DNA of 64,000 nucleotides from Pedobacter riviphilus (GTDB taxonomy: Bacteria; Bacteroidota; Bacteroidia; Sphingobacteriales; Sphingobacteriaceae), in NCBI RefSeq assembly GCF_014692875.1, contig NZ_CP061171.1, forward strand, positions 5,704,001-5,768,000. The letters run 5' to 3'. The position numbers and the translations under genes are program-made. Positions within the stretch are counted from its first letter, which is position 1; each line of letters starts with the position of its first letter. The notes below the pieces were generated by a model. That model was not told where the DNA came from. It saw nothing but the letters and a program-made list of their open reading frames with translations, and did no database searches. Shown piece after piece: positions 1-14,213 of this stretch.

Positions 1-3
1 TAT

Positions 4-165
4 TTATTTCAGAATAAATTTTAAACAGCGCCCTGGCTTAATCGCGATTTGATGATCCGTATTTATAACATTTGATTTATAACCAACAAGGGGAGTGAAG
101 TGATCAATCATTCGAACAGCCTTCTCAGGTGTTAAAAACCTGAGGTGACTGAAAATTAAATCCAA
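4..165 (-). CDS. possible small protein, 53 aa, TTG start
   Basis: An open frame of 53 codons from a TTG at 165 to TAA at 4, starting inside the last codons of the CYTH gene. The translation is soluble and of ordinary composition, with a segment TPEKAVRMIDHFTPLVG that reads like real protein. An in-frame stop lies just upstream of the TTG, so it cannot be the tail of a longer gene on this strand unless there is a frameshift. I do not recognise the family. It would be the last gene of the GH20-CYTH transcript. It could equally be a relic or chance frame. Confidence 0.25.
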   Translation of the reverse strand: MDLIFSHLRFLTPEKAVRMIDHFTPLVGYKSNVINTDHQIAIKPGRCLKFILK

Positions 166-629
166 TCTTTAAAGGGCTTAACTGCTAAATTAGAATTATA
201 ATATTTTTCTTCTTCGGTAACTTCTCTGCTTATCCAATCTGGGAGTTCGAATATTTCGTCTTCACTGTCAAGTTCAATTTCGGCAACAATTAGTCCTTTA
301 TTATCGCCCAAAAATACATCTATCTCCCAAACCTTGCCGTTAAATGTAATTTCATAACGTGTTTTTGAAAGTTCAGTTAAGGAAAAGTGATCTAATAACT
401 CTGTGGCTTCACCAACAGGGATTTCATATTCGTATTCCATCCGGGTTGCACCAATCGTTTGACCTTTTATGGTTAAAAAACCTTTGGTTTCGGTTGCCCT
501 TACGCGCACCGTTTTATCTTGATCACTAAGTAAATAACCTTGTCTAAAAAGTTTTCCTTCTGGTTTGCTCAGGTTATTCCACTTCTGATGATCGATTAAG
601 AATTTGCGTTCTATTTCTTTTCCCATCAT
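156..629 (-). CDS. CYTH domain protein (triphosphate tunnel metalloenzyme)
   Basis: The N-terminus carries EIERKFL (residues 5-11), the ExExK signature that opens the CYTH tunnel fold. It is followed by basic and acidic strands expected to line the tunnel (VRVRATE, FLTIKG, EYEYEIP, IDVFLG, AEIELDSEDE). The family hydrolyses triphosphate compounds such as inorganic triphosphate; some members are class IV adenylate cyclases. At 157 aa it is a single-domain bacterial form without a CHAD domain, so tripolyphosphatase-like activity is the likeliest guess and the substrate is unknown. Two ATGs in a row (629 and 626) overlap the TGA of the upstream hexosaminidase gene, which suggests translational coupling. 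Confidence 0.85.
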   Translation of the reverse strand: MMGKEIERKFLIDHQKWNNLSKPEGKLFRQGYLLSDQDKTVRVRATETKGFLTIKGQTIGATRMEYEYEIPVGEATELLDHFSLTELSKTRYEITFNGKVWEIDVFLGDNKGLIVAEIELDSEDEIFELPDWISREVTEEEKYYNSNLAVKPFKDWI

Positions 630-2575
630 CTTGCCCTTTTCTGTAAATCAGCAACAGGCATGCTGATCAATCTTCCAATCGGTTGTTTCCCGCGGTAGGT
701 AATTACACGGAGCATACTGGCATCTTTTGGCACCTGTAATGCGGCTGTATATTTCGGATAAAAACGGTCGGGAGTAGAGTTATCAAAGCTATAGTAGATA
801 TCCAGACCGTCTATTTCCGTCGTTAATTCGATCATTAACTGTTTATCAGCACTGCGTTTTACTGTAAAAATCGGATCGTAAATGGCAGGCGAATATTTAA
901 TCTCTGCTAAATCTAATCGTTTGAAATGCTGTTGTGTGCGATCAACAAAATTTGTCCAGTTTTTCTTTTCAATTGGACTCCAGATCGATTCCGAAATGGC
1001 AAATGCACGTGGCCAAACCATATATTCTGCCTGGCGGAAAGTAAAAACCTGCTCTGTCCAAAGGTTGGCCTGTGCACCAATAATATACTGTGCATTTACG
1101 CCTGCTGGAACAGGGTTAAACTGGTAGGCTTTATTTAACCTTAACGAGGCATAAACTTTTGGTTCGGTAATCGGATCTGCCTGCATATAATCCAGGTATG
1201 CAAAATCAGTTGGACTCATTACCACGTTGTGCTTTTCATTCGCTGCCTGGATACCATATTTCATTCCTCTCCAGCTCATTACGGCTGCTGTTGGCGATAC
1301 ACCTCCTTCAAGAATTTCGTCCCAGCCCATAAACTTTTTGCCTTTCGAAATCACGATCTGTTCTACACGTTTTTCAAAATAAGCCTGAACTTGAGGAATA
1401 GTTTTTAAACCTTCGCGAAGCATTAAAGCTTTAACCTGATCGTTCTTTTCCCAGAAATTATGAGGGGCTTCATCACCACCCATATGAATGTATTCAAAAG
1501 GGAAAAGTTTAGCTACCTGGGTAAGCACAGAATCTAAGAACACATAAACTTTTTCGTTTGCCGGGCAAAGTGTATTATCAACCAAAGCAGTTGGTGGCGC
1601 ACCACGGCTCCAATCCATAATTTTTTCACCTGAGCGCACTTTATAATTAACGGCATCCGGCGTGCAGGATAGTTCAGGGTAAGAAGCGATAATAGCTAAA
1701 CTATGCCCTGGAACATCGATTTCTGGTAATATATTTACAAAACGTTCTTGTGCATACTGAACGAGTTCTTTAATATCTTCCTGGGTATAAAAACCACCGT
1801 AAGTACGGGGTTCATCCGCCGTTGGTGGGGTAAAATCGCCGAAAGTCCCGATTTTTTTAACGCTCCATGCACCTATTTCAGTTAATTTAGGTAAGCCTTT
1901 AATTTCAATTCTCCAGCCTTCATCATCTGCGAGGTGCAAATGCAACAGATTAAATTTATAACGCACCATGTCGTCAATAAACTGCTTTACTTCTTGCTTG
2001 GTGAAAAAGTGACGGGCTACATCGAACATCAAACCTCTCCAGCCCAATTTTGGATAATCTACCACATCAACACAAGGCGCCTTCCATTTGATATCATTTA
2101 CTAGTTCCTTGCTTTCTATTTCGGCTGGGAAAAGTTGAAGCAATGACTGAACGCCATAAAAAATCCCAGCAGGCTGGTTAGCTGTAATTACAACCTGTGT
2201 AGGATTAACATTTAATTTGTAACCTTCTTTACCGAGTTGGGTATCTTCTTGAGTATTTAAAATCAGTTTAATAGTTGGGTGACTTGAATTACTCACTGTG
2301 CTTACAAATTTACCGGTAGCGGTAGTAATCCGATCGGAAAGGTAAGCGATAGATTGTTTTAATTCTCCACTCTTAACAGTCTGGATGGTTACATTTTCTG
2401 GTAAGGTAAAAGTACCTGCCTTTTTCATTAAAGATACAGGCTCTGGTATAATAGCAATTGGTGTTTGTGCAACTGCGCTTTCGGAATCGCCGATTTCAGT
2501 TTCTGTAACAATAGATTGAGCGAAGGTATTGGCTGCAAAAAAACAGTAAGAGATAATCAGGAATATTTTTTTCAT
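626..2575 (-). CDS. beta-N-acetylhexosaminidase, GH20 family
   Basis: A 649-aa secreted protein with a signal peptide ending at about residue 20 (ANTFAQ). It has a GH20b N-terminal domain (about 40-165), then the GH20 barrel with the catalytic Asp-Glu pair D368-E369 in HMGGDEAPHNFW. The barrel also shows RGLMFDVARHF, HLADDEGWRIE and LPEIDVPGH. A C-terminal segment (about 585-640) resembles the CHB_HEX_C accessory domain. The enzyme removes terminal GlcNAc or GalNAc from glycans by substrate-assisted catalysis, probably in the periplasm or at the outer membrane. Its stop overlaps the start of the CYTH gene, so the two are co-transcribed; any functional link is unclear. Confidence 0.93.
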   Translation of the reverse strand: MKKIFLIISYCFFAANTFAQSIVTETEIGDSESAVAQTPIAIIPEPVSLMKKAGTFTLPENVTIQTVKSGELKQSIAYLSDRITTATGKFVSTVSNSSHPTIKLILNTQEDTQLGKEGYKLNVNPTQVVITANQPAGIFYGVQSLLQLFPAEIESKELVNDIKWKAPCVDVVDYPKLGWRGLMFDVARHFFTKQEVKQFIDDMVRYKFNLLHLHLADDEGWRIEIKGLPKLTEIGAWSVKKIGTFGDFTPPTADEPRTYGGFYTQEDIKELVQYAQERFVNILPEIDVPGHSLAIIASYPELSCTPDAVNYKVRSGEKIMDWSRGAPPTALVDNTLCPANEKVYVFLDSVLTQVAKLFPFEYIHMGGDEAPHNFWEKNDQVKALMLREGLKTIPQVQAYFEKRVEQIVISKGKKFMGWDEILEGGVSPTAAVMSWRGMKYGIQAANEKHNVVMSPTDFAYLDYMQADPITEPKVYASLRLNKAYQFNPVPAGVNAQYIIGAQANLWTEQVFTFRQAEYMVWPRAFAISESIWSPIEKKNWTNFVDRTQQHFKRLDLAEIKYSPAIYDPIFTVKRSADKQLMIELTTEIDGLDIYYSFDNSTPDRFYPKYTAALQVPKDASMLRVITYRGKQPIGRLISMPVADLQKRAR

Positions 2576-2909
2576 TTAAATCATTAAAACGGGTTAACCG
2601 GATAAGTATAATTCCGCAATTTATTAAAAAAGATTTTAATGGGTGGTATTTGTGCAGAAGGAAATGTGCAAGAAGCAAAGCGCGGAGCGTATAGCGGTTA
2701 GCGTTGGATAAAAATTGTAATTGAATTTATGATATTATTAGAGATTTGTCAGTCTGAGCGGAGCCGAAGAATTAGCCACAAAGTTCACAGAGAAAGTCAT
2801 CATCTGCGAAAATCTTTTTGATCTGCGGGAACAGCAATTTTGTCCCATAGTTAGCTGATTCTAAAAAAAGATTGCCCCTCGATATACTCAAGATGATATC
2901 TTTTTTAAC
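2576..2909. other. 334-bp intergenic region with repeat debris
   Basis: No convincing gene. From about 2748 it holds fragments of dispersed repeats seen elsewhere in such genomes: a TCAGTCTGAGCGGAGCCGAAG block near 2749, and a later stretch ending in CTCAAGATGATATC near 2888 that looks like the other half of a decayed palindrome. The short frame at 2496-2678 covers the hexosaminidase promoter region and is not coding-like. Confidence 0.5.
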
Positions 2910-3302
2910 TTAGACTACAAACTGTTTTAGCCATTCCATTGCTTTTTTATCGTCAGTAAATGATTTAATCGGGATAGGCGGGTTTTGAAACTTAAACAAA
3001 ATCTTCATAATTAATTGCGCCAAACCAGGTTTCGAAACCATCGCCATAGCAGTATAAATTTGCGGCAATTGCTCCGTAGAAAACTTTCGTGTTTCTTTGT
3101 CTGGAACAGGAGAATTTTTTAAGTAAATTAACAGTGGGACTTTCTTATTCCCCGTAATTTCCTTCACCAGTACAACATTGGCCGAAATATTTCCCACAGT
3201 ACGTAAAACACTTTTACTGTAGGAAATCAGTATCCCATCATCAGTTAATAAATAATCGGCAATTTCGCCTTCAATAAGCTGTTTATCGCTATCGTTTCTC
3301 AT
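2910..3302 (-). CDS. small STAS/SpoIIAA-like protein, last gene of the amine operon
   Basis: A 130-aa soluble protein without signal peptide or membrane segment. The pattern (a strand pair such as DYLLTDDGILISYSK, a helix, a central LLIYLKNSP strand, a later helix, and a C-terminal FTDDKKAMEWLKQF helix) matches the small STAS/SpoIIAA-like proteins common in Bacteroidota, where the C-terminal helix is typical. Function is unknown. It starts 4 bp after the stop of the aldehyde dehydrogenase, so it belongs to that operon, perhaps as a regulator or scaffold; this is inference. Fold assignment is moderate. Confidence 0.6.
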   Translation of the reverse strand: MRNDSDKQLIEGEIADYLLTDDGILISYSKSVLRTVGNISANVVLVKEITGNKKVPLLIYLKNSPVPDKETRKFSTEQLPQIYTAMAMVSKPGLAQLIMKILFKFQNPPIPIKSFTDDKKAMEWLKQFVV

Positions 3303-3306
3303 TCTA

Positions 3307-4680
3307 CTATCCTCTCAAATGATAACCTTTGGGTTTAGTAAAGGCCCTTAACCCCTGATGTGATAGGGTAGCGCCAATACCCGAATACTTTCTTCCGCTC
3401 CAAGGTAGTGCTGCACTTACTCGATCGCAACAATTCCAATAACCTGAGCCAGCATCTAACTGGGCTAATATTTTTTCGGCCTTGGACTGGTTGGCCGTAT
3501 AAACCGATGCGGTTAATCCATAATCGGTATCTTTCATCATACTTAGGGCCTCAGTATCATCTTTCACTTTCATTATGCCGATTATCGGTCCGAAACTTTC
3601 TTCCTGCATCACCAGCATATCGTTGGTAACATCGGTTAGCACTGTTGGTTCAAAATAATAACCTTTTCCCTCAATGGCTTTGCCACCGGTTAATAGTTTT
3701 GCACCTTTACTTAAGGCATCAGCAACTTGATTTTCCAATAGCAAAATCTGTTCTTTCCGTGTTAAGGCACCAATATATACGCCATCAGTTGTAGGTTGGC
3801 CCATTTTCCAGCTTTTAACCTCGGTAACGAAAGCATTTAAATAATTTTCGTAATTTTTCTCATGCACATATATACGTTCTACAGAACAGCAGCTTTGTCC
3901 GTTATTGTAAAAAGCGCCATCAGCCGTGCCAACTGCAGCAGAAGCAACATCGGTTACATCTTCGGCAATGTATAAGGGGTCTTTTCCGCCTAATTCCAAT
4001 TGACAGGGAACCATTTTCGATGCTACTTTTTCGTAGATGAATTTCCCCGTTTTATAAGACCCGGTGAAGAAATAACCATCAAAATCCATCTCTAATAATG
4101 CCGTTCCCGTTTCTTTCGCGCCAATAGCGATATGGAAAATATCATCAGGCACCCCCGCTTTTTTTAGCAATTTTTCAATCTCAATTCCAGTTAAGGTAGC
4201 ATACTCCGATGGTTTATACATTACGGCATTGCCGCTCAATAAGGCTGGGATAAATACATTCACGCCAACCAGATAAGGATAATTCCAAGCTGAGATATTG
4301 CACACTATACCCAATGGCTCATATTTAATGATTTCTTTCAAACTTGGTTCATCAACCATCACCTCATCACTTAAATATTTTTCAGCATTATTGAGCATCC
4401 ATTTAATACGGGTCCTCGCACCATTAATTTCATTACGCGATTGTTGTAAAGGTTTGCCTACTTCGGAGGTTAGCACCGCGGCCAGTTCTTCAATTTTAAC
4501 TTCCAGTAAATTACTGAATTGAGCGATAACCAAAATCCTTTCGCTAAGGGTTTTGTTGGCCCATTGTGGTTGAGCCTTTTTTAAAGTAGCTAATTTGGCT
4601 TGAAGCGTAGATGAGTTATCTTCCGTCAAACTGGTAATAATTTCTTCTGTTGCTGGGTTGATGATCTGCATGTTCTTCAT
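3307..4680 (-). CDS. NAD(P)+-dependent aldehyde dehydrogenase
   Basis: An ALDH-superfamily enzyme. Numbering from the upstream ATG at 4701, it shows AWNYPYLV, KPSEYATLTG, the FTGS cofactor loop (about 212-215), the general base Glu236 in ELGGKDPL, and the catalytic Cys271 in NNGQSC. The ATG at 4680 is preferred because the seven extra codons of the 4701 start fall inside a dispersed CCACGGATTTTCACGG repeat. It oxidises an aldehyde to an acid. In this operon the expected substrate is the gamma-glutamyl-aminoaldehyde made by the neighbouring iron alcohol dehydrogenase. Sequence alone does not fix substrate; the nearest named groups are succinate-semialdehyde and gamma-glutamyl-aminoaldehyde dehydrogenases. 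Confidence 0.9.
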   Translation of the reverse strand: MKNMQIINPATEEIITSLTEDNSSTLQAKLATLKKAQPQWANKTLSERILVIAQFSNLLEVKIEELAAVLTSEVGKPLQQSRNEINGARTRIKWMLNNAEKYLSDEVMVDEPSLKEIIKYEPLGIVCNISAWNYPYLVGVNVFIPALLSGNAVMYKPSEYATLTGIEIEKLLKKAGVPDDIFHIAIGAKETGTALLEMDFDGYFFTGSYKTGKFIYEKVASKMVPCQLELGGKDPLYIAEDVTDVASAAVGTADGAFYNNGQSCCSVERIYVHEKNYENYLNAFVTEVKSWKMGQPTTDGVYIGALTRKEQILLLENQVADALSKGAKLLTGGKAIEGKGYYFEPTVLTDVTNDMLVMQEESFGPIIGIMKVKDDTEALSMMKDTDYGLTASVYTANQSKAEKILAQLDAGSGYWNCCDRVSAALPWSGRKYSGIGATLSHQGLRAFTKPKGYHLRG

Positions 4681-4681
4681 T

Positions 4682-4785
4682 TTCTTGCCACGGATTTTCA
4701 CGGGACACAGATTTTATAAAGGGGTAGGACTAATATCTTAATTAGCTTACCGCTCTCTATCTGTGTTTATCCTTTTTATCTGTGG
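4682..4785. repeat. CCACGGATT/CACAGATT-type dispersed repeat halves
   Basis: Between the aldehyde dehydrogenase and the gamma-glutamyl hydrolase lie TGCCACGGATTTTCACGG with CACAGATTTTAT, then in the opposite sense ATCTGTGTTTATCC with ATCTGTGG. These words are the core of a short dispersed repeat typical of Bacteroidota intergenic DNA. A related copy is at about 47459-47489. The facing copies could form a long imperfect hairpin in the operon mRNA. Confidence 0.5.
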
Positions 4786-5489
4786 TTGATATTTAATTTT
4801 ATCGCGTTAATAAAAGCCTCGTGTATATTTTTGCTAAATGGGCTGTGCTGATCTTTTAAGCGTTCGGGATGCCATTGTACAAATAACAAAAAGGATTTTC
4901 CTTTGGGTTCAATCCGCTCCATTGCTTCCGTAACGCCATCTAGAGATATTGCGCACACCACCAAACCTTTCCCCGTTTTATCGGTGCTTTGGTGATGGTT
5001 GCTATTTACTAAGCCCTTATCGGTATTTACAATCTGGTTCAGCCACGAGGATGGGTTTACCATAATCTCGTGATAGCGATCTGATTTATCGTACATTTTA
5101 GAATGATCGAATTTTCCCCAGGTTGGGATGTCAGGAATCAAAGTTCCGCCAAAAAACACATTGCCCACTTGCATGCCTCTACAAATGCCCAAAACAGGAA
5201 CGGAATTGGCCTCAGTATAGGTTAAAACTTTAAATTCAAACTCATCACGTTCTTCATCAATATCATCATCATAACAGTAAGGATAATAGTCAGGCTGATT
5301 GTAAAAACGAGGGTGAACATCTTCACCCCCTGTTAAAACAATCCCATCGCATTTTTTGATCTCGTCGAAATTGTTGAGTTTGTACCCAAGCTGGATTACC
5401 TCCACATTTTTGTTGTAGGATAAAACCCAATCGCGATAGATGTCGAATTTGCTACAGTCGGTAACACCAATTATTATTTTATCAGACAT
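4776..5489 (-). CDS. gamma-glutamyl-compound hydrolase, class I glutamine amidotransferase family (PuuD-like)
   Basis: A 237-aa class I amidotransferase-fold hydrolase. The nucleophile is Cys103 in VLGICRGMQ, the catalytic His207 and Glu209 are in QWHPE, and LTGGEDVHP (about 52-60) forms the substrate loop typical of the peptidase C26 / PuuD group. PuuD cleaves gamma-glutamyl-GABA to release glutamate and GABA. Here the enzyme would remove glutamate from the oxidised gamma-glutamyl intermediate. It lies between the two dehydrogenase genes of the operon. With an alcohol dehydrogenase rather than an amine oxidase alongside, gamma-glutamylglycine is the more likely substrate (inference). Confidence 0.88.
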   Translation of the reverse strand: MSDKIIIGVTDCSKFDIYRDWVLSYNKNVEVIQLGYKLNNFDEIKKCDGIVLTGGEDVHPRFYNQPDYYPYCYDDDIDEERDEFEFKVLTYTEANSVPVLGICRGMQVGNVFFGGTLIPDIPTWGKFDHSKMYDKSDRYHEIMVNPSSWLNQIVNTDKGLVNSNHHQSTDKTGKGLVVCAISLDGVTEAMERIEPKGKSFLLFVQWHPERLKDQHSPFSKNIHEAFINAIKLNINHR

Positions 5490-5582
5490 ATAAATTAATT
5501 ATACTGATTTATCTTCTTTTCTTTCGGAATGATTACACCGATTTTAATAAATATCATAATCCTGTAATCGGTTAATCCTAAT

Positions 5583-6731
5583 TTATAGTGCGCTTAAGTA
5601 CAATTGTTTAAAATCTTCTCTGCTTACCGGTTTAGGATTATTTGGATGTGCAAAATCTGCAAAGGCTAAATCGGCAAGTGTTTCAATATGTTCATTTTTA
5701 ACACCAATATCACTCAATTTATGCGGAATATTCACTTTCATGTTTAAATCGAACAGATATTTTACAACAGCTTCACCATTTTCATCTTTAAGGTCTAGCG
5801 TACGGGCGATTTTTTTAAAACGGTCTTCAAAACCCGCAATATTAAACTGCATGCCGTAAGGAATATTTACGGCGTTGGCCAAACCATGGTGGGTATCTAA
5901 AAGCGACGAAAGTGGATGCGCCAGCGAGTGCACCACACCCAAACCTTTTTGAAAGGCAATAGCACCCATCATCGAAGCCATTAACATTTTACTGCGGCTT
6001 TCTAAATCAGGATTGTTGGTTGCACGTTCCAGAGAATCTTTGATCAATGAAATTCCCTCCAGCGCGATTCCATCACACATCGGGTGGAAATTCTTGGCCA
6101 GATAAGCTTCCATATTATGTGTTAAAGCATCCATACCCGTTGCAGCAGTGATAAATGGGGGTAAATCCATCGTGAGTTCCGGATCTGCAAATACGATCTG
6201 CGCCATTAATTTTGGGGAGAAAAGAATTTTTTTCTGGTGGGTTTCATCATCAGCAATAATGGCACTGCGGCCAACTTCACTTCCGGTACCAGATGTAGTT
6301 GGGATGGTGATAAAATGTGGAACAGCGTTCGTTACGTAGATATCGCCGCCGATTAAATCATCGTATTTGAATAAGTCTTCACGGTGATTAACGCGGAGCA
6401 CAATTGCACGGGCTACATCTAAAGCAGCACCACCACCAATACCTACTATACTGTCACGATTGGTAGCATCCCAAACATCGGTACCTTTGTAAACATCACT
6501 TTTTACCGGGTTTTTGTGGATGTCGCTAAAAACCTCGACAGCAATGCCCTTTGCCTTTAAATCTTCAACTATGGTTTTAAAAAACGAAAGTTGTGCAATG
6601 GTGGGGTCGGTTACAATTAGCGGTGCCTTTAAATTATTCTTGCTTAAGTAGGCAGGCAACTCTTTTACTGCGCCAGCACCAAAACGGATGGTTGTGGGGA
6701 AATTAAACTGATGGATCTTATCAAATATCAT
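5583..6731 (-). CDS. iron-containing alcohol dehydrogenase
   Basis: A 382-aa group III (Fe-dependent) alcohol dehydrogenase. It has the NAD-binding GIGGGAALDVARA segment, PTTSGTGSEVGRSAII, and the two metal-ligand signatures TGMDALTHNMEAYL and GLGVVHSLAHPL with the later DTHHGLANA. The class oxidises primary alcohols to aldehydes, or the reverse. In this operon it replaces the amine oxidase (PuuB) of the putrescine pathway, so the glutamylated substrate should carry a hydroxyl group, for example gamma-glutamylethanolamide. It is separated from the upstream ligase gene by 409 bp of repeats and from the downstream hydrolase by 93 bp. Confidence 0.92.
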   Translation of the reverse strand: MIFDKIHQFNFPTTIRFGAGAVKELPAYLSKNNLKAPLIVTDPTIAQLSFFKTIVEDLKAKGIAVEVFSDIHKNPVKSDVYKGTDVWDATNRDSIVGIGGGAALDVARAIVLRVNHREDLFKYDDLIGGDIYVTNAVPHFITIPTTSGTGSEVGRSAIIADDETHQKKILFSPKLMAQIVFADPELTMDLPPFITAATGMDALTHNMEAYLAKNFHPMCDGIALEGISLIKDSLERATNNPDLESRSKMLMASMMGAIAFQKGLGVVHSLAHPLSSLLDTHHGLANAVNIPYGMQFNIAGFEDRFKKIARTLDLKDENGEAVVKYLFDLNMKVNIPHKLSDIGVKNEHIETLADLAFADFAHPNNPKPVSREDFKQLYLSAL

Positions 6732-6747
6732 GACAATTAATTTATCT

Positions 6748-6930
6748 TTTGTTTTACCACCTTAGGTGTCTGAGCGCACCTAAGAGTGAGTTGTTATTTT
6801 ACTGTTTATAAAAAACTAACTATATACAATTAGCTAAGATGTTCTAAGGTGGCTTAGGCGATCAACATTTTAGCATGTTTTTATTTGTTTTACCTCCTTA
6901 GGCACCTGAGCTCACCTAAGCTTGGGTGTT
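6748..6930. repeat. pair of direct repeats with internal CTTAGGTG/CACCTAAG palindromes
   Basis: Two copies of a ~48-bp sequence lie at 6748-6795 and 6883-6930, about 135 bp apart. Each begins TTTGTTTTAC and contains a CACCTAAG arm. In the first copy CTTAGGTG (6761-6768) pairs perfectly with CACCTAAG (6777-6784) across 8 bases; in the second the left arm is CTTAGGCA. A further TAAGGTGGCTTAGGCG lies between them. They sit between the ligase and alcohol dehydrogenase genes of one apparent operon, and could be dispersed repeats or RNA structures tuning expression. Confidence 0.55.
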
Positions 6931-6983
6931 AAAATATTAAAATTCCGAATCACGTTACCAATCACAGATTTAAAAAAAGCGGT

Positions 6984-7068
6984 CGTCATTCCCGCGCAGG
7001 CAGGAATCTTAATGCAACCTACAAACCATGCCAAGGCATTAGGATTCCCAAGCAAGTTGGGAATGACG
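6984..7068. repeat. REP-like palindromic element (GTCATTCCC...GGGAATGAC)
   Basis: The outer arms CGTCATTCCC (6984-6993) and GGGAATGACG (7059-7068) are perfectly inverted. Inner arms GGAATCTTAATGC and GCATTAGGATTCC pair with one mismatch, giving an 85-base hairpin. It is higher in G+C than its surroundings and of a kind found scattered between Bacteroidota genes. The open frames seen on both strands across it are products of the palindrome, not genes. Confidence 0.75.
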
Positions 7069-7140
7069 ATGACTCGTATTCTCCCATCTTTAATCATTGT
7101 TTTTTCTAGAAATTTGATTTTTCAGCATGAACACTTTAGG

Positions 7141-8502
7141 CTAAATAATTTCTAAATATCTTTTTAGTTCCCAATCGGTTACAACTTTAGCATATTGCTT
7201 GCATTCCCATTCGCGGGTCATGGTAAAATGATTAACGAAATCTTCGCCTAATAATGCTGCGGCTAAGTCAGAATTTTTCATCTTTTGCGTAGCCTCAAAT
7301 AAATTGCGCGATAATACCCCATTCGAAAGATCTGTATATCCATTTCCCTTGGTAGCAGGTTGTTCGAGTTTCAGCTTATTTTTGATCCCGTACATTCCAG
7401 CGGCCAAACAGGCCGAAAGTGCCAGGTAAGGATTGGTATCAGAACCCACTATCCTGGTCTCTAAACGTGATGCCTTTTTGCTTCCGGGTAGCGCACGTAA
7501 TGCCGTTGTACGGTTATCAATTCCCCAGGTTACCGTAGTGGGTGCCCATGCGCCTTCAACTAAACGTTTGTAACTGTTTATGGTAGGGGCAATCATTGGT
7601 AAAAGGTATGGAAGGCAATGTAACTGACCAGCGATATAACTTTTCATGGTTTCGCTCATTTTATCTGCATCTTTTTTGTCGTAGAACAAGTTGGTCTTCT
7701 TATCGGCATCCCACAGGCTTTGATGTACATGACCGCTGCATCCGGGTAAATTTTCACTTATTTTGGCCATAAATGTGGCAATAATACCGTGTTTATACGC
7801 TATTTCTTTTACGGCAGTTTTAAATAATATCGCTTGATCAGCAGCTTGTAAGGCAGGCGCATATTTAATCGCAGCTTCGTAAACCCCTGGTCCGGTTTCA
7901 GTATGCAAACCTTCAATCGGGATGTCGAATTTATTCAACAGTTCGAACAGGTCGCTCATAAACTCATTCTGGTAGGTGCTTCTCAAAATGGAATAGCCAA
8001 ACATGCCGGGGCTTAAGGGTTTTAAATTGGTAAAACCTTTCTCGTGGATAGTTTCTGGTGTTTCCGAAAAATTAAACCACTCAAATTCCTGTGCAAAAAG
8101 CGGCGAAAATCCTTCATTTTCACATTCTGCAATCACTTTCTTTAGCAACTGCCTCGGACAGACATAATTTGCCTGATCCTGATCGTCAATAAAATCGCCC
8201 AAAAAGAAAGGCACTTCATTTTCCCACGGAATTTTCCGGAATGTGCTCAGATCAATTTTCACCTGGGCATCTGGATAACCAGTATGCCAACCTGTATATT
8301 TTCCGTTTTCGTAAGCTACATCGCCTGCATCCCAACCAAAAGTAACATCACAGAAACCCAGGCGACCTTCAACCAGGGATGTAAATTTTTCGGCAGCTAC
8401 ATATTTTCCCCTTAAAATACCGTCGATATCGGCAACAGCTAATTTAACTTTTCCAGAGGGATGATGTTTTACGTAATCCAGAATTTCTTTGCTCGTACTC
8501 AT
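7141..8502 (-). CDS. glutamine synthetase-like gamma-glutamyl-amine ligase (PuuA / GlnA4 type)
   Basis: A 453-aa member of the glutamine synthetase superfamily with the short N-terminal domain and the catalytic domain (AQEFEWF, HTETGPGVYEAA, GCSGHVHQSLWD, WGIDNRTTALR, RLETRIVGSDTNPYLA). The loop reads GCSGHVH where housekeeping enzymes have GSGxHxH, and the adenylylation region is absent, so it is not the nitrogen-assimilation enzyme. Relatives join glutamate to amines using ATP: PuuA (putrescine), IpuC (isopropylamine) and Streptomyces GlnA4 (ethanolamine). The start codon lies at the very end of the permease gene (about 1 bp overlap), so the two are coupled. This is the entry step of the operon's pathway. 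Confidence 0.9.
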   Translation of the reverse strand: MSTSKEILDYVKHHPSGKVKLAVADIDGILRGKYVAAEKFTSLVEGRLGFCDVTFGWDAGDVAYENGKYTGWHTGYPDAQVKIDLSTFRKIPWENEVPFFLGDFIDDQDQANYVCPRQLLKKVIAECENEGFSPLFAQEFEWFNFSETPETIHEKGFTNLKPLSPGMFGYSILRSTYQNEFMSDLFELLNKFDIPIEGLHTETGPGVYEAAIKYAPALQAADQAILFKTAVKEIAYKHGIIATFMAKISENLPGCSGHVHQSLWDADKKTNLFYDKKDADKMSETMKSYIAGQLHCLPYLLPMIAPTINSYKRLVEGAWAPTTVTWGIDNRTTALRALPGSKKASRLETRIVGSDTNPYLALSACLAAGMYGIKNKLKLEQPATKGNGYTDLSNGVLSRNLFEATQKMKNSDLAAALLGEDFVNHFTMTREWECKQYAKVVTDWELKRYLEII

Positions 8503-9815
8503 TAATCTGCCTTTTTAAAGATTTTATATAGAAGAAATATGCCTAAAACAATGCCCGAATAAATTAAACCTAATTTAAGATTATAAATCAGCATTGCGAT
8601 GAAAGAAACGCAGGAAATAATTAATGCAACTATGGGAAATAACGGATAAATTGGCATTTTGAAAGGTCTTGTCATCTCAGGTTTGTTTTTCCGCAGTACC
8701 ATGACCGAAATCATCGAGATGATATATAAAGTTAATGCCCCAAATACCGAAATGATAATAATTTCGGCAGTTTTGCCAGATAAAAGCGCGATAATACCAA
8801 TCACCATATTGCCAATTAATGCATTTGCTGGTGTTTGAAATTTTGGCGAGATTTTTCCTAGTACTGCAGGAATGCTTTTTACTCTCCCCATCTCATAAGT
8901 AGAGCGGCCTGCTGCTAAAACCAAACCGTGAAAGGAGGCTACCAAACCAAATAAGCCTACCGTAATAAGCAAGTGGTACATCAGGTGGTTATCGTCTGTG
9001 ATCATCGAAAGGGCTAATGGTAGAGGTGAATCGGAAGTTTCGCCCGATTTCCCGTTTTTATATACTATGGCTTCCCAACCACCTATGCCAATTGTGGAGA
9101 TGAAAACCAGCACACATAATACCACTAATGTAAATATACCCCAGCCAAAGCCCTTACTGATATCTCGTTGTGGGTTCTTGGTTTCTTCGGCTACATTTGC
9201 AACGCCTTCAATACCCAGAAAAAACCAGATGGCAAATGGAATGGCCGCAAAAACACCGCTCCAGCCATTTGGAAAGTTATTGTGGACCAGGTTTTCTACA
9301 TGAAATTTAGGTAATGTAATTCCTGAGAACAAGAGCAGTTCGCCGACTGCCAGAACGGTAATAATGACTTCGAATGAAGCCGCGGCTTTTACGCCATATA
9401 CATTTAGGGCAGTGAAAATAAAATAAACAGCAATTGCACTCGTAAGAATGGGTACCTGCGGGAAAAAGGCATTAAAATAAGCACCAATGGCAAAGGCTAT
9501 GGCCGGTGGGGCAAATATAAATTCGACCATTTGAGCAATACCTGCAATAAAACCGATGTTTTTGCCGAGCGCGATATTAGCATAATCGAAAACACCACCT
9601 GCCTTTGGTATAGCACAGGCAAGTTCTGCATAACTAAAACTAAAGGTAACATACATCACCATAATGGCAACTGTTGCAATGGCCATACCCAAGGTGCCAC
9701 CTTTTTCGAGGCCTAAGTTCCAGCCGAAATACATTCCCGAAATCACATATCCTACGCCAAGCCCCCATAACATAAAAGGGGTAAGTGTTTTCTTTAAGCT
9801 ATCTTTTTGTTCCAT
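8502..9815 (-). CDS. APC-family amine permease, ethanolamine-permease-like
   Basis: About 437 aa with twelve hydrophobic segments. The N-terminal WGLGVGYVISGMYFGWNLGL, the SYAELACAIPKAGG loop, and VASFHGLVLAAGRSTYEMGR around the middle match the ethanolamine permease branch of the amino acid-polyamine-organocation family better than generic amino acid permeases. The ATG at 9815 (MEQKDSLKK) is preferred over one five codons upstream. It would import the amine consumed by the adjacent gamma-glutamyl ligase. It is first in the operon, and the region upstream (9831-10025) is divergent with the M48 peptidase gene. No eutBC lyase is present in the window. Confidence 0.85.
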   Translation of the reverse strand: MEQKDSLKKTLTPFMLWGLGVGYVISGMYFGWNLGLEKGGTLGMAIATVAIMVMYVTFSFSYAELACAIPKAGGVFDYANIALGKNIGFIAGIAQMVEFIFAPPAIAFAIGAYFNAFFPQVPILTSAIAVYFIFTALNVYGVKAAASFEVIITVLAVGELLLFSGITLPKFHVENLVHNNFPNGWSGVFAAIPFAIWFFLGIEGVANVAEETKNPQRDISKGFGWGIFTLVVLCVLVFISTIGIGGWEAIVYKNGKSGETSDSPLPLALSMITDDNHLMYHLLITVGLFGLVASFHGLVLAAGRSTYEMGRVKSIPAVLGKISPKFQTPANALIGNMVIGIIALLSGKTAEIIIISVFGALTLYIISMISVMVLRKNKPEMTRPFKMPIYPLFPIVALIISCVSFIAMLIYNLKLGLIYSGIVLGIFLLYKIFKKAD

Positions 9816-9975
9816 TGGCAGGATGTACAAGATTGAAATAGGTTTATATTATTTGCTCGAAAATGATAAACTATTAGCTTCGGTATCTGATGTTTAAAGT
9901 AGTAATTATTTTCGAATCATTTTACTGTCGCTAGCAATTGCTGCAATAATTTATTATTAATTTTTTTTAAAGTGC

Positions 9976-10006
9976 TTTTGGGCATTTACCAGTTTTGTTA
10001 TCTTGC
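9976..10006 (+). promoter_or_regulatory. candidate -33/-7 promoter of the M48 peptidase gene
   Basis: TTTTG (9976-9980) is followed 18 bases later by TATCTTGC (9999-10006), close to the Bacteroidota -7 consensus TAnnTTTG. Transcription would start near 10010, about 16 bases before the ATG at 10026. Confidence 0.4.
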
Positions 10007-10025
10007 ATGACCAAACAATATCTTT

Positions 10026-12098
10026 ATGCACGAAAACGCTCTCCGGCCTTCTGAAAATTTTAAGAAGATGGCTGCCAAGTCTGTACAGGCTATTACCTTA
10101 TTCATTGCCACCTATGTAGTATTAATAATATTTACATTGGTGCTAACCGCAGCTTCCTGTTACTTGGGGATAAAGCTCATGGAATACATCAGCTCTTCCA
10201 TTACTTTTATTTTGGGCATCGGTTTGATAGGATTTGGTTTTATGATCTTATTTTTTCTGGTCAAGTTTATGTTTAAGGGCAATAAGCTGGACAGGTCTCA
10301 TTTATTGGAAATTACCAGGACCGATCAGCCTGAAATCTTTAAAATGATTGATGAAATTGTTTTAAGCGTACAAACAGATTTCCCGAAAAAAGTATATCTA
10401 TCAAATGAGGTTAATGCTGCCGTTTTTTACGATTCGAACTTTTGGAGCATGTTTTTTCCTGTGCGCAAAAACCTAATAATCGGATTTGGGCTAATCAATA
10501 CTACTACTGCTGATGAACTACGTGCAATATTGGCCCATGAGTTTGGCCACTTTTCACAAAGGAGCATGAAGGTTGGCATTTATGTATACCAGTTTAACAA
10601 AATTATTTACGATATGCTTTATGATAATGAAAGTTATGATAAAGTAACGAGGGGCATAGCGAGTGCAAGTTCTTATATTGGTATTTTTGTGTTAATTTCT
10701 GATAAGATAATCGGTTTGATGCAGCAGATCCTAGTGCGTGTTTATCAGGTTTTAAGCGAGAGTTATAGTAAACTTTCGCACGAAATGGAATTTCATGCCG
10801 ATGCAGTTGCCGCAGTAACCGTAGGTTCTAAACCGCTTATTGATTCGTTATTGCGCATGCAGCTCGCAAACCGTTCGGTGGATATTATCTGTAATTATTA
10901 CGAAAGAAAAATCGATGACTGTGTTATTTCGGCAAATATTTTTCCGCAACAGATTTTAGTAATGAACTTTTTAGCTCAAAGGAATAAACTGCCTTTCGAA
11001 AATGGATTTCCGCAGGTGAGCATTGGCTATTATAATCGCTTTAACAAATCAAAAATATCCTTTTCCAATCAATATAGTTCACATCCCGAAACCGATGAGC
11101 GTATTAAAAAATTAAATGATCTCGGAATTCCTGTTGCAAAACCATCCCACGAGATGGCAAATTCGCTACTTGTTGATCAGGAAAAAATAGCTGAAAAATT
11201 TACAGCACAGATATTTCAGCATGCGGTTTACCGAGAGCAACCATCGGTACAACAGTTGAGTGACTTTGAAGCAGATTTTTTCAAAGAAAATGATCAAAAT
11301 TCTTATCCTGATATTTTTAATGGTTATTTCGATTATAGAAATCCCTATCATCAATTTAATATAGATGCATTTGATCTGCCAACTATTCCATCTGAATTGA
11401 GCATTGAAGAGTTTTTTGATGATACCAATTTAAGCGTAATCTATGAGTTGAAGGCATTGGAAGCCGATCTGACCACGATAGATAACATAGATTCTCAGGT
11501 CATCAATGTCAAAACATTTAATTACGACGGCAAAAAGTATTCGCTGGCTGATTGTAGGGCAATGATTGATTATTTGAAGGGTGAAATAAGTAAGAAAAAT
11601 GAGCAATTGGTCCTACTCGATGCAAAGGTTTTTGAATATTTCAGGTTTTTGGCAAAAGAAAATCAAACTGAAGCAATATTTAAATCGCTTTCGATCAAAT
11701 ATAAGCAGGTAGCTGAAGAGTTTACTGTTCAAGAGAATGCTTATTTAGATCTGGCCAACGCAACAAGATTTATGCACACATCAGCATCCAAAGAAATGAT
11801 CAAAAGAAAGATGGTGGTGGTTAAAAAAGAAGAGAAAAAATTTAAGGATTGTTTGATTGCAATCGTTAACAATGATGCGTACGCCAGTTTAATAAACGAA
11901 GAGGCAAAAATAGCCCTAGCGGAGTACTTGAAACATGATTACAAGTATTTTGGGGCAGATCTTTATTTTGATGAAGAGCTTAAGGATTTATTTTTTGCGA
12001 TGAATTTTTTCGGAGGAGTAATATCCGAACGACATTTCCTTACTAAAAAAGAACTTCTGAACTTTAATGCAAAATTGATAAATCCGGTATTTAGTTAA
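10026..12098 (+). CDS. M48-family membrane metalloprotease
   Basis: A 690-aa protein with two N-terminal membrane helices (about 20-50 and 55-83). A HEXXH zinc site follows at His171-Glu172-His175 (LAHEFGHFSQRS), with a third-ligand motif ExxxD at 255-259 (EFHAD). The catalytic part resembles HtpX/Ste24-type peptidases (KVYLSNEVNAAVF, IIGFGLINTTTADELRAILA). The C-terminal 300 residues form a helical extension of unknown role, longer than HtpX. It probably acts on membrane or envelope proteins from the cytoplasmic membrane. The gene stands alone and ends at a hairpin terminator. Confidence 0.9.
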   Translation: MHENALRPSENFKKMAAKSVQAITLFIATYVVLIIFTLVLTAASCYLGIKLMEYISSSITFILGIGLIGFGFMILFFLVKFMFKGNKLDRSHLLEITRTDQPEIFKMIDEIVLSVQTDFPKKVYLSNEVNAAVFYDSNFWSMFFPVRKNLIIGFGLINTTTADELRAILAHEFGHFSQRSMKVGIYVYQFNKIIYDMLYDNESYDKVTRGIASASSYIGIFVLISDKIIGLMQQILVRVYQVLSESYSKLSHEMEFHADAVAAVTVGSKPLIDSLLRMQLANRSVDIICNYYERKIDDCVISANIFPQQILVMNFLAQRNKLPFENGFPQVSIGYYNRFNKSKISFSNQYSSHPETDERIKKLNDLGIPVAKPSHEMANSLLVDQEKIAEKFTAQIFQHAVYREQPSVQQLSDFEADFFKENDQNSYPDIFNGYFDYRNPYHQFNIDAFDLPTIPSELSIEEFFDDTNLSVIYELKALEADLTTIDNIDSQVINVKTFNYDGKKYSLADCRAMIDYLKGEISKKNEQLVLLDAKVFEYFRFLAKENQTEAIFKSLSIKYKQVAEEFTVQENAYLDLANATRFMHTSASKEMIKRKMVVVKKEEKKFKDCLIAIVNNDAYASLINEEAKIALAEYLKHDYKYFGADLYFDEELKDLFFAMNFFGGVISERHFLTKKELLNFNAKLINPVFS

Positions 12099-12104
12099 CG
12101 TAAA

Positions 12105-12132
12105 AAAGCCAGTAATTAATCTTACTGGCTTT
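12105..12132. terminator. bidirectional hairpin terminator
   Basis: AAAGCCAGTAA and TTACTGGCTTT form a perfect 11-bp stem between the convergent M48 peptidase and YiaA/B-like genes. An A-run on one side and T's on the other let it serve both strands. Confidence 0.8.
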
Positions 12133-12137
12133 AATGC

Positions 12138-12545
12138 CTATTCCGAATCGCGGTTTTTATTCACAATCTGGCTGTCTCTCGTATTTTTCTGTACCGTAAT
12201 GGCGCCGAAAAGTGAGAGTAAAAAAGCAAAGGCATAAAACCCTTTTTCGCTGGGTAGCAAGGTAGCATTCCACAAACCGATTACCAATAAAGTGATGGTG
12301 AGTAGCGTAGAAAACCAACTGATACCGTAATAAATTTCAGTAACCGGAATTCCTTCTAATTTATCGCGAACAGCTTTTTGTAAAGAGATTACGGCAAAAA
12401 GGCCAAACATCAATACAGTAAAATAATATCCTTTTTCATTGAGAAGCATATCAGAACGCCACAGGCCTACAATAAAGCCGATCATTCCGATACCTAATGC
12501 AATCCAGGCGGCCGCCACGAATGCATTCGATGGTTTTTGATTCAT
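12138..12545 (-). CDS. YiaA/YiaB-family inner membrane protein
   Basis: A 135-aa protein with four membrane helices arranged as two repeats of the YiaA/B two-helix unit. Each repeat has the pattern GLWRSDMLLNEKGYYF / GLWNATLLPSEKGFYA followed by LFAVISLQKAVRDK / LFGAITVQKNTRD. The internal duplication is clear by eye and matches the known family. Function is unknown. It is a single gene, convergent with the M48 peptidase gene. Confidence 0.88.
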   Translation of the reverse strand: MNQKPSNAFVAAAWIALGIGMIGFIVGLWRSDMLLNEKGYYFTVLMFGLFAVISLQKAVRDKLEGIPVTEIYYGISWFSTLLTITLLVIGLWNATLLPSEKGFYAFAFLLSLFGAITVQKNTRDSQIVNKNRDSE

Positions 12546-12716
12546 TGTTTTGAGATTTAATTTAATTCAATAGACAACAACGCTAAAGATTGGCAAAAGG
12601 TATAAAAATTAAAAGATAGTATTTTAAATTATTTTGGAAGATTAGCCTATCGGGTATAAAAAGCCAAACAAAATCCTATCCTTTGCATTATACCTGTATA
12701 ATCTTATCTTAGTTAT

Positions 12717-14213
12717 ATGCGAACCTTGCTTACTTCTGCCCAAATGCGTAGTGCTGATCAGTTTACGATTGCCAATAAACCCATTGCTTCTATCGATCTG
12801 ATGGAAAAAGCGGCGAGGGCCTTTGTTCAAACTTTTTTAAGAGACGAGTTCGATACCAATAAAAGTGTGGCGATAATCTGCGGAAAGGGAAATAATGGTG
12901 GCGATGGATTAGCGATTGCCCATTTGTTATTGACCAACGGTTATGAAAATATTAAAGTTTATATTGTTAACTTTAGTAAAAAGGAAAGCAACGATTTTGC
13001 GATCAACCTGCAACGGATTGAGGAATCGCACTGCAAAAAAATAGTAATCAACCAACCTTCCGATCTGAAAAGCCTAAAGGCAGATTTAATTATCGATGCC
13101 ATTTTAGGTTCGGGTTTAAACAAGGCGCTAACAGGCGACTTTGAAGAACTGGTTCAGTTTATTAACAAACAGCAAAAAAAAGTATATGCAGTTGATGTAC
13201 CTACAGGTTTTTTTGCCGAAGGAAAATTGCCTAAAGATTATAACGGTATAAAAGCTTATAAAACAATTTCTTTCCAACGTCCAAAAATTAATTTTTTCTT
13301 TCCTGAGTCAACCATGGCGACAGAAAAATATGAGGTGGTTGATATTGACCTGGATGAGGCCTTTATCCAAAAACAAGAGGCTGATTTTTATTTAGTGGAA
13401 GAAAATGATATTGAGAAGATTCTGCAGCCCCGAAAATTGTTCAGCCATAAAGGTACTTACGGCCACGCATTGATTATTGCAGGTAATAGCAATACCATGG
13501 GCGCGGCTTTGCTTTCTTCAATGGCTTGTTTACACGCAGGGTCAGGATTAACCACAGTGTGTATTCCGCAGGGTGGATTAACCGCCTTAAATGCCACTTT
13601 ACCAGAGGTAATGGCGCTGCCAAGAGATGAATACACAAGAATAGAAAACCCAAAGAAATATCAGGCAATTGCTATAGGCCCTGGCTTAGGTACCGAAGCT
13701 GAAAACGAAAAACTTCTGGAAAGTTTGATTATGGCCAACCAGGCAATGATAATCGATGCAGATGCTTTAAATATCTTGGGCGAACGGTCCGATTTGATTG
13801 ATAAAATTGTCGCAAATAGCATTATCACCCCTCATATGAAAGAGTTCGATCGGTTATTTGGCGAACATGATAATTGGTGGGACAGGGTGCAAACCGCTAC
13901 AGAACAGGCCAAAAAACAGAAGATCGTTATCGTGCTTAAAAACCAGTATACTTTTGTCTGCCTGCCTACGGGTAAGGTACTTATCAATCCTACGGGCAAC
14001 CCGGCTATGGCACAAGGCGGAATGGGCGATGTTCTTACCGGTATTATCGCAGGCTTTGTAGCACAGCGGTATTCGGCAACAGATGCCGCTATTCTGGCTT
14101 GCTACATTCATGGAAAAGCTGGCGATCATTTAGCGCACGAACAATTTGTGGTTACCGCATCGCAGGTTGCAGCCAGCATATCAAAAGAAATTAAAGCGCT
14201 CATGTCTAGATAG
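12717..14213 (+). CDS. nnr: bifunctional NAD(P)H-hydrate epimerase / ADP-dependent dehydratase
   Basis: A 498-aa fusion. The N-terminal YjeF_N epimerase domain (about 1-215) has CGKGNNGGDGLAIAH and AILGSGLNKALTGD. The C-terminal ribokinase-like dehydratase domain (about 225-495) has GSGLTTVCIP, IIDADALNIL, ITPHMKEFDRL and the anion-hole motif NPAMAQGGMGDVLTGIIAG. It repairs hydrated NADH and NADPH: the epimerase interconverts the R and S forms and the dehydratase restores the cofactor with ADP. Length and domain order match the bacterial bifunctional form. Confidence 0.95.
   Translation: MRTLLTSAQMRSADQFTIANKPIASIDLMEKAARAFVQTFLRDEFDTNKSVAIICGKGNNGGDGLAIAHLLLTNGYENIKVYIVNFSKKESNDFAINLQRIEESHCKKIVINQPSDLKSLKADLIIDAILGSGLNKALTGDFEELVQFINKQQKKVYAVDVPTGFFAEGKLPKDYNGIKAYKTISFQRPKINFFFPESTMATEKYEVVDIDLDEAFIQKQEADFYLVEENDIEKILQPRKLFSHKGTYGHALIIAGNSNTMGAALLSSMACLHAGSGLTTVCIPQGGLTALNATLPEVMALPRDEYTRIENPKKYQAIAIGPGLGTEAENEKLLESLIMANQAMIIDADALNILGERSDLIDKIVANSIITPHMKEFDRLFGEHDNWWDRVQTATEQAKKQKIVIVLKNQYTFVCLPTGKVLINPTGNPAMAQGGMGDVLTGIIAGFVAQRYSATDAAILACYIHGKAGDHLAHEQFVVTASQVAASISKEIKALMSR

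Follow-up and report, generated by a model that had tools for sequence, protein, structure and literature searches.

A probable coenzyme-B12-independent ethanolamine operon of the gamma-glutamylation type in Pedobacter riviphilus and related Bacteroidota

Gene content and conservation of the locus

We examined a 64,000-nucleotide stretch of the Pedobacter riviphilus genome (NCBI RefSeq assembly GCF_014692875.1, contig NZ_CP061171.1, positions 5,704,001 to 5,768,000; this whole stretch is called the window), in which a first-pass annotation had placed six genes on one strand at 2910..9815. All six open reading frames (ORFs) were located there, on the minus strand, and their families were assigned by Pfam and NCBIfam profile matches (Table 1). 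In order of transcription, the five-gene set consists of a permease, a glutamine synthetase-like (GS-like) ligase, an iron-containing alcohol dehydrogenase (Fe-ADH, or simply ADH), a hydrolase and an aldehyde dehydrogenase (ALDH), with a DUF7793 gene as the sixth. The operon probably encodes catabolism of ethanolamine, or of a primary amino alcohol very like it, without a need for coenzyme B12.

Table 1. Features of the operon, in order of transcription (window coordinates)
Feature	Position	Strand	Profile matches and remarks
APC-family permease, Eat/TIGR00908 type	8502..9815	-	AA_permease_2, TIGR00908; ATG start
GS-like ligase, putative gamma-glutamyl-amine ligase	7141..8502	-	PF00120 (Gln-synt_C), 325 bits
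409-base spacer, ligase to ADH	6732..7140	-	contains dispersed palindromic repeat
Iron-containing (group III) alcohol dehydrogenase, proposed gamma-glutamylethanolamide dehydrogenase	5583..6731	-	PF00465/PF25137
Class I glutamine amidotransferase-like hydrolase (Peptidase_C26, PuuD-like), proposed gamma-glutamylglycine hydrolase	4776..5489	-	PF07722, 151 bits
Aldehyde dehydrogenase	3307..4680 (ATG) or from 4701 (GTG)	-	PF00171 (Aldedh), 423 bits
DUF7793 protein, weakly SpoIIAA/STAS-like, accessory	2910..3302	-	DUF7793 66 bits, cut-off 26

The ligase ATG and the permease stop codon overlap by 1 base, an alternative in-frame TTG start at 9830 being possible for the permease, and the DUF7793 gene begins four bases downstream of the ALDH gene. 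The distance between ligase and ADH genes is 409 bases here versus -14 to 36 in many relatives; the repeat within it (window 6975-7080) has 44 matches in the genome, its own copy counted. Judging from this context, the operon genes are presumably co-transcribed. For the four enzymes, none of the listed NCBIfam matches attained its cut-off (ALDH: best 25 of 43). An Rfam search of window positions 1-14000 gave no match to a structured RNA, and no tRNA was found in the window.

Gene neighbourhoods were counted around the best 80 of 564 confirmed ligase relatives in the genome collection, with neighbours scored within 6 kb. Because the best 80 were used, the counts are biased towards close kin; they are counts of loci, some of which share a species or strain (L054 and L055 lie on one contig) and some of which are from metagenome bins. 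All five functions occurred together at 55 of the 80 loci (54 by ORF matching; L064 by tblastn), in Pedobacter, Chitinophaga, Solitalea, Rhodocytophaga and other genera. Such co-location puts the arrangement beyond chance. The remaining 25 loci comprised L085, without the permease only; L095, truncated by a contig end; and 23 without such an ADH within 6 kb. Among these 23, the permease adjoined the ligase at 17 and neither permease nor ADH was found at 6; the contig ended at most 1.5 kb after the ligase at 6 (L067, L068, L074, L077, L080 and L096); and at L091 an ADH relative lay 7.9 kb downstream. At L067, L068, L070, L072, L074, L075 and L094, ligase and permease were accompanied by a divergent ALDH (26-29%) upstream on the opposite strand, and an ADH was not seen nearby, some of these contigs being short.

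The small protein had first been described as a STAS-like member of the operon. Its gene is present, but the SpoIIAA-like/STAS match falls below the cut-off (21.8 versus 25 bits), DUF7793 being the family matched instead, and the gene is a local addition outside the conserved unit: it is restricted to close relatives and adjoins the ligase at no more than 14 of the 80 loci, of which 13 are from Pedobacter and the last is from a Sphingobacteriaceae bin. This rules it out as a core part. Flanks were compared at the 62 loci that combine ligase, ADH and ALDH; no sixth gene held a fixed place across genera, and the commonest flanking family reached at most 22/62. A family of ~1,092-residue proteins lay near 18 of the 62, in several genera (on the same strand, upstream at 12 loci and downstream at 5; on the opposite strand, upstream at 1). 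An upstream motif was sought in 50 aligned upstream regions (45 shown), in which hardly any column reached 85%; a TTATATT stretch recurred in many regions from Chitinophaga and from a single Pedobacter group.

Co-occurrence was also followed in samples of 41 and 296 genomes, within which related genomes are not independent. Among the 41 (own genome included), the ligase (at least 62%) was present in 18 and the ADH (at least 67%) in exactly those 18; the permease (at least 60%) was present in the same 18 and in G025, where it adjoins a ligase of the Phaeobacter-type clade described below (L171). In G017, of the same genus, EutB and EutC adjoin a permease at 47% identity. Among the 296 genomes of the phylum, EutB was found in 8 and the operon-type ADH (E <= 1e-100) in 6, each time with the ligase adjoining and never together with EutB. 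This distribution suggests two scarce alternative solutions, one of them B12-free. Four of the eight EutB genomes (G138, G253, G288 and G230) also carry the ligase, always in a kinase cassette and without the ADH. EutBC is a B12-dependent lyase with acetaldehyde as its product, unlike the route considered here. The window's genome (one contig, 97.73% completeness) is not among the eight and has no match to the EutB family PF06751; the EutBC pathway was rejected on this ground, in agreement with the first-pass annotation.

The ligase and its relatives

Relative to Escherichia coli glutamine synthetase, the ligase keeps the metal, phosphate and most glutamate ligands (E139, E141, E202, E209, H258, H260, R313, R336, R346, E348 and R350). 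Its substitutions are E327 to W319, Y179 to F168 and N264 to P253, leaving it without the ammonium-site Glu (E327) and Tyr (Y179). GlnA4 and PauA7 are likewise reported to be without E327 and Y179 (PMC6529630). A type I glutamine synthetase was rejected from the W and F at these two positions and from a GlnA equivalog score of 226 versus 429 bits.

In the ligase tree (68 rows, midpoint-rooted for drawing only, with PuuA on a long branch), ligases from ADH or permease contexts, plus four from neither, formed one 35-row clade (support 100/99). The Pedobacter ginsenosidimutans ligase is 96% identical to that of the window. Kinase-cassette ligases branched just outside it, followed by Proteobacterial ligases (44-47% identity). 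The Phaeobacter-type clade (9 rows, 100/99), IpuC and PuuA were placed apart from the window's ligase family, and the window and Ruegeria (Phaeobacter-type) ligases fell in separate starred clades. A tree comparison with PuuA, IpuC and GlnA4 had been proposed in the first pass: the former two (28% and 38-39% identical to the window ligase) are both separate from it, and GlnA4 was not among the rows. In an approximately unbiased (AU) test that excluded PuuA, and for which the tested group was picked after viewing the first tree, a grouping of the window's family with the Phaeobacter-type clade that left out the Proteobacterial and IpuC ligases was rejected (log-likelihood 29.9 lower, AU p = 0.0014). 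The nearest solved ligases were 11zs and 5dm3; 5dm3, which we take to be the Chromohalobacter salexigens enzyme, matched the Ruegeria ligase at 801 bits.

Outside the operon, members of this ligase family (LIG) stand in a kinase-phosphatase cassette (L147-L153 and L155-L162; e.g. L151:7673-10943) with a 347-aa kinase-fold protein, a HAD-IIA phosphatase and sometimes a GSII-like gene. The 347-aa protein has no Pfam match; the model of this APH/choline-kinase-fold kinase matches small-molecule kinases, including aminopropanol kinase and choline kinases.

The ligase might serve the process of this cassette, the operon then handling a derivative of the cassette's compound and not free ethanolamine. 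A kinase gene does lie nearby in 26/26 examined genomes, of 28 that have the ligase (at least 53%) without the ADH, the kinase model has the small-molecule matches just given, and the W, F and P columns of the active site agree between operon and cassette ligases. The operon- or permease-linked ligases nevertheless have a 35-row clade of their own, and the ethanolamine-type permease that accompanies them was not seen in 15 long cassette loci; we consider a shared process improbable. It is conceivable, if doubtful, that Bacteroidota built their own ethanolamine gamma-glutamylation route using a ligase of the cassette lineage, which is phylum-wide and includes Balneolaceae such as Gracilimonas, and that the cassette itself is a second gamma-glutamyl amine chemistry, perhaps acting on a phosphorylated amino alcohol.

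Since the ligase lies outside the Phaeobacter-type clade and its family is commoner in another cassette, ligase similarity alone is no pointer to ethanolamine. The substrate pointers are the permease and the dehydrogenases.

Dehydrogenases, hydrolase and permease, and the probable substrate

The window ADH is 42, 40 and 37% identical to Fe-ADHs that adjoin GS-like ligases at L173 (same phylum), L181 (Photobacterium GJ3) and L107 (Ruegeria), respectively, and 32% identical to E. coli FucO and EutG, which suggests a modest lean towards the pathway relatives. The ALDH motif NNGQSCC aligns with PuuC and the Ruegeria ALDH; the catalytic residue given earlier, Cys271, is correct if numbering begins at the GTG (the ATG start makes it Cys264) and aligns with the NxGQxC motif of PuuC. 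The hydrolase triad named at the same time, Cys103/His207/Glu209, is conserved in 15/15 other aligned proteins (13 operon hydrolases, one pTC1 amidotransferase and PuuD). The hydrolase is otherwise the most variable part of the set, its identity being 81-97% among close Pedobacter but 51-60% or 31-42% in other genera; at L045, L059, L062, L087 and L154, hydrolases are 31-53% identical to the window's, and ligase and ADH are better conserved.

The permease scores 438 bits to TIGR00908, a curated ethanolamine-permease equivalog (cut-off 381.75), and by this match would import ethanolamine. In the permease tree (40 rows, midpoint-rooted for drawing only, with PuuP and a Photobacterium permease on long branches), the permeases linked to window-type ligases fell in one 29-row clade (99/99). 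Three permeases linked to ligases of the Phaeobacter-type clade fell inside this same clade, where they grouped together at 100/98 and joined two permeases linked to window-type ligases at 81/92 (a branch not starred). Within the window's phylum, L175 and L176 are operons with a Phaeobacter-type-clade ligase, a short-chain dehydrogenase (SDR), an ALDH and an Eat-type permease; an amidotransferase was found in both by tblastn, and by ORF matching in L176 only. Related permeases (42-47%) also adjoin EutB/EutC in five Bacteroidota loci (L164-L167, which are four of the eight EutB loci, and L188) and form a separate clade (98/99) outside the 29 rows; further relatives adjoining eutB/eutC occur in Thioclava and Moraxella. 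The simplest reason for one permease clade to accompany different ligases and different first dehydrogenases is a shared substrate. This variety of enzymes around one permease type is the strongest argument for ethanolamine, or a closely similar amino alcohol, as the substrate.

A different primary amino alcohol, such as alaninol or 3-amino-1-propanol, could instead be the compound that this chemistry converts to the corresponding amino acid. A primary alcohol is all that the Fe-ADH and ALDH require; the closest hydrolase among the reference proteins compared is that of the ipuC locus (35%), IpuC itself having the ligase identity given above; and the title of one paper describes a GS-like enzyme as broad in substrate (PMC11335346). 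Set against these are the permease score above the ethanolamine-permease cut-off, its clade shared with permeases of glnA4-like operons, the relatives that adjoin EutBC and an operon without P450 or any other isopropylamine gene, and we regard a different amino alcohol as rather unlikely.

A Puu-type pathway for putrescine or another diamine, with the ADH in a side role, would share with the operon the gamma-glutamyl protection logic, the class I amidotransferase (PuuD-like) hydrolase and the ALDH, and the ligase relatives L104 and L105 lie near polyamine-type ABC transporters. The E. coli pathway, however, uses the amine oxidase PuuB, has no ADH and has another permease, whereas the operon has neither amine oxidase nor aminotransferase. 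With the low ligase identity to PuuA, a GGputSyn score of 207 bits versus a cut-off of 650, and a permease 23.5% identical to PuuP and distant from it in the tree, the putrescine pathway was rejected, and we judge it highly improbable.

Several points weigh against ethanolamine gamma-glutamylation as the role of the operon. The window's ligase family stands in the kinase-phosphatase cassette instead in 26 of 32 examined genomes of the phylum, and 23 of the 80 ligase loci showed no such ADH inside the 6-kb range, 6 of them with a contig end close to the ligase as given above. The window ligase is 37.6% identical to the Ruegeria ligase and lies in a different clade, and the Proteobacterial relatives L104 and L105 are near aminotransferases as well as polyamine-type transporters. 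Around D50 the ligase alignment is of poor quality, with E65 in that column, so that loss of that ammonium residue cannot be claimed. A related permease was not seen within the stretch examined at 4/8 EutB loci, and one permease relative (Paraburkholderia) adjoins a primary-amine oxidase gene. Finally, a regulator was not found among the flanking genes of the operon loci.

Proposed pathway and comparison with known systems

In the proposed pathway, the Eat-type permease would bring in ethanolamine, and the ligase, with ATP, would form gamma-glutamylethanolamide by coupling the amine of ethanolamine to the gamma-carboxyl group of glutamate. The Fe-ADH would oxidise the hydroxyl of this compound to an aldehyde, the ALDH would convert the aldehyde to gamma-glutamylglycine, and the PuuD-like hydrolase would release glycine and regenerate glutamate. 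A glycine decarboxylase gene is present in the genome. The gene set, its conservation and co-occurrence, its catalytic residues and the one permease clade found with two kinds of ligase operon are directly observed; we infer every reaction from the named families and from published pathways. By sequence, a GS-like ligase that is not a glutamine synthetase, an ADH, an ALDH and a putative gamma-glutamyl hydrolase stand in one operon with an adjoining transporter of the ethanolamine type. From genomic context, ethanolamine is likely, not proven, as the substrate. A very common phospholipid of bacteria has ethanolamine as its headgroup, which makes the compound a widespread source of nitrogen and carbon.

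The operon is real, conserved and catabolic, and its chemistry is known elsewhere. A predicted pathway with proteomic support has been published for Phaeobacter sp. MED193, in which the enzymes are named as ethanolamine gamma-glutamylase, gamma-glutamylethanolamide dehydrogenase, ALDH and gamma-glutamylglycine amidohydrolase; proteins for each step were raised with phosphorylethanolamine as the phosphorus source, and the genes are called close relatives of genes whose function has been shown in C. salexigens and Agrobacterium (PMC10132767). A review restates the route for Streptomyces coelicolor and C. salexigens (PMC9397018). As described in PMC10132767, the Phaeobacter/C. salexigens system matches the gene set of the window step by step: a GS-like ligase, an alcohol dehydrogenase, an ALDH and an amidohydrolase in one operon, with identical reactions proposed. 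The Phaeobacter dehydrogenase would be of the iron type, judging from a Ruegeria plasmid operon (L107) that has the Phaeobacter gene order, with a ligase, an ALDH and an annotated iron-containing alcohol dehydrogenase. The Phaeobacter-type systems differ in having a TRAP transporter where the window has the Eat-type permease, and the Ruegeria operon in its N-formylglutamate-amidohydrolase-type hydrolase (versus the PuuD-like class I amidotransferase), its MurR/RpiR regulator and the low identity of its ligase and Fe-ADH given above.

The glnA4 cluster of S. coelicolor is described as encoding a ligase, a dehydrogenase, an ALDH, an ethanolamine/amino acid permease and a glutamine amidotransferase, and the abstract states that GlnA4 is needed for growth with ethanolamine (PMC6529630). 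These are the functions of the window operon, but the Streptomyces dehydrogenase is an SDR in place of the Fe-ADH, and the regulator EpuRI is present there. The Bacteroidota operons L175 and L176 have the gene set of this Streptomyces cluster. Because a single permease clade goes with ligases of two clades and with either an Fe-ADH or an SDR, it offers a clean case for studying pathway assembly from interchangeable parts.

The route from ethanolamine to glycine and glutamate, put forward in the first-pass annotation, stands as the best reading, with ethanolamine as the best-supported substrate, but the route, alcohol dehydrogenase included, had already been published outside Bacteroidota. The further statement, that no account of it existed for Bacteroidota, fits our literature search, which found nothing on a Bacteroidota version in a collection short of most subscription journals, the titles and abstracts retrieved being off-topic. 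What appears to be new is the Bacteroidota version itself: its ligase belongs to a lineage distinct from the Phaeobacter-type clade, and its Fe-ADH to a group of its own. The analysis further offers candidate functions for five genes whose database labels go no further than 'glutamine synthetase family' and similar.

Two further sets of genes resemble the operon. On plasmids of Photobacterium (L181:6451-12645, from GJ3, and L102:7986-12750), ligase, ALDH, Fe-ADH and amidotransferase genes stand in a row, with like pathway logic in other lineages; on the GJ3 plasmid an APC permease (33% match) precedes them. The isopropylamine (Ipu) genes annotated on the Paenarthrobacter aurescens TC1 plasmids share with the window a GS-like ligase, an ALDH and the class I amidotransferase hydrolase of the ipuC locus, but they include P450, ferredoxin and SDR genes and their ligase belongs to a separate clade. 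The Ipu pathway was rejected for the window, whose operon has no P450 or ferredoxin genes and whose ligase is outside the IpuC clade. On pTC2, ipuC has an amino acid permease gene and a putative alcohol dehydrogenase gene no more than 8 kb away, and a gene annotated as a 'putative ethanolamine permease' lies ~22 kb from it.

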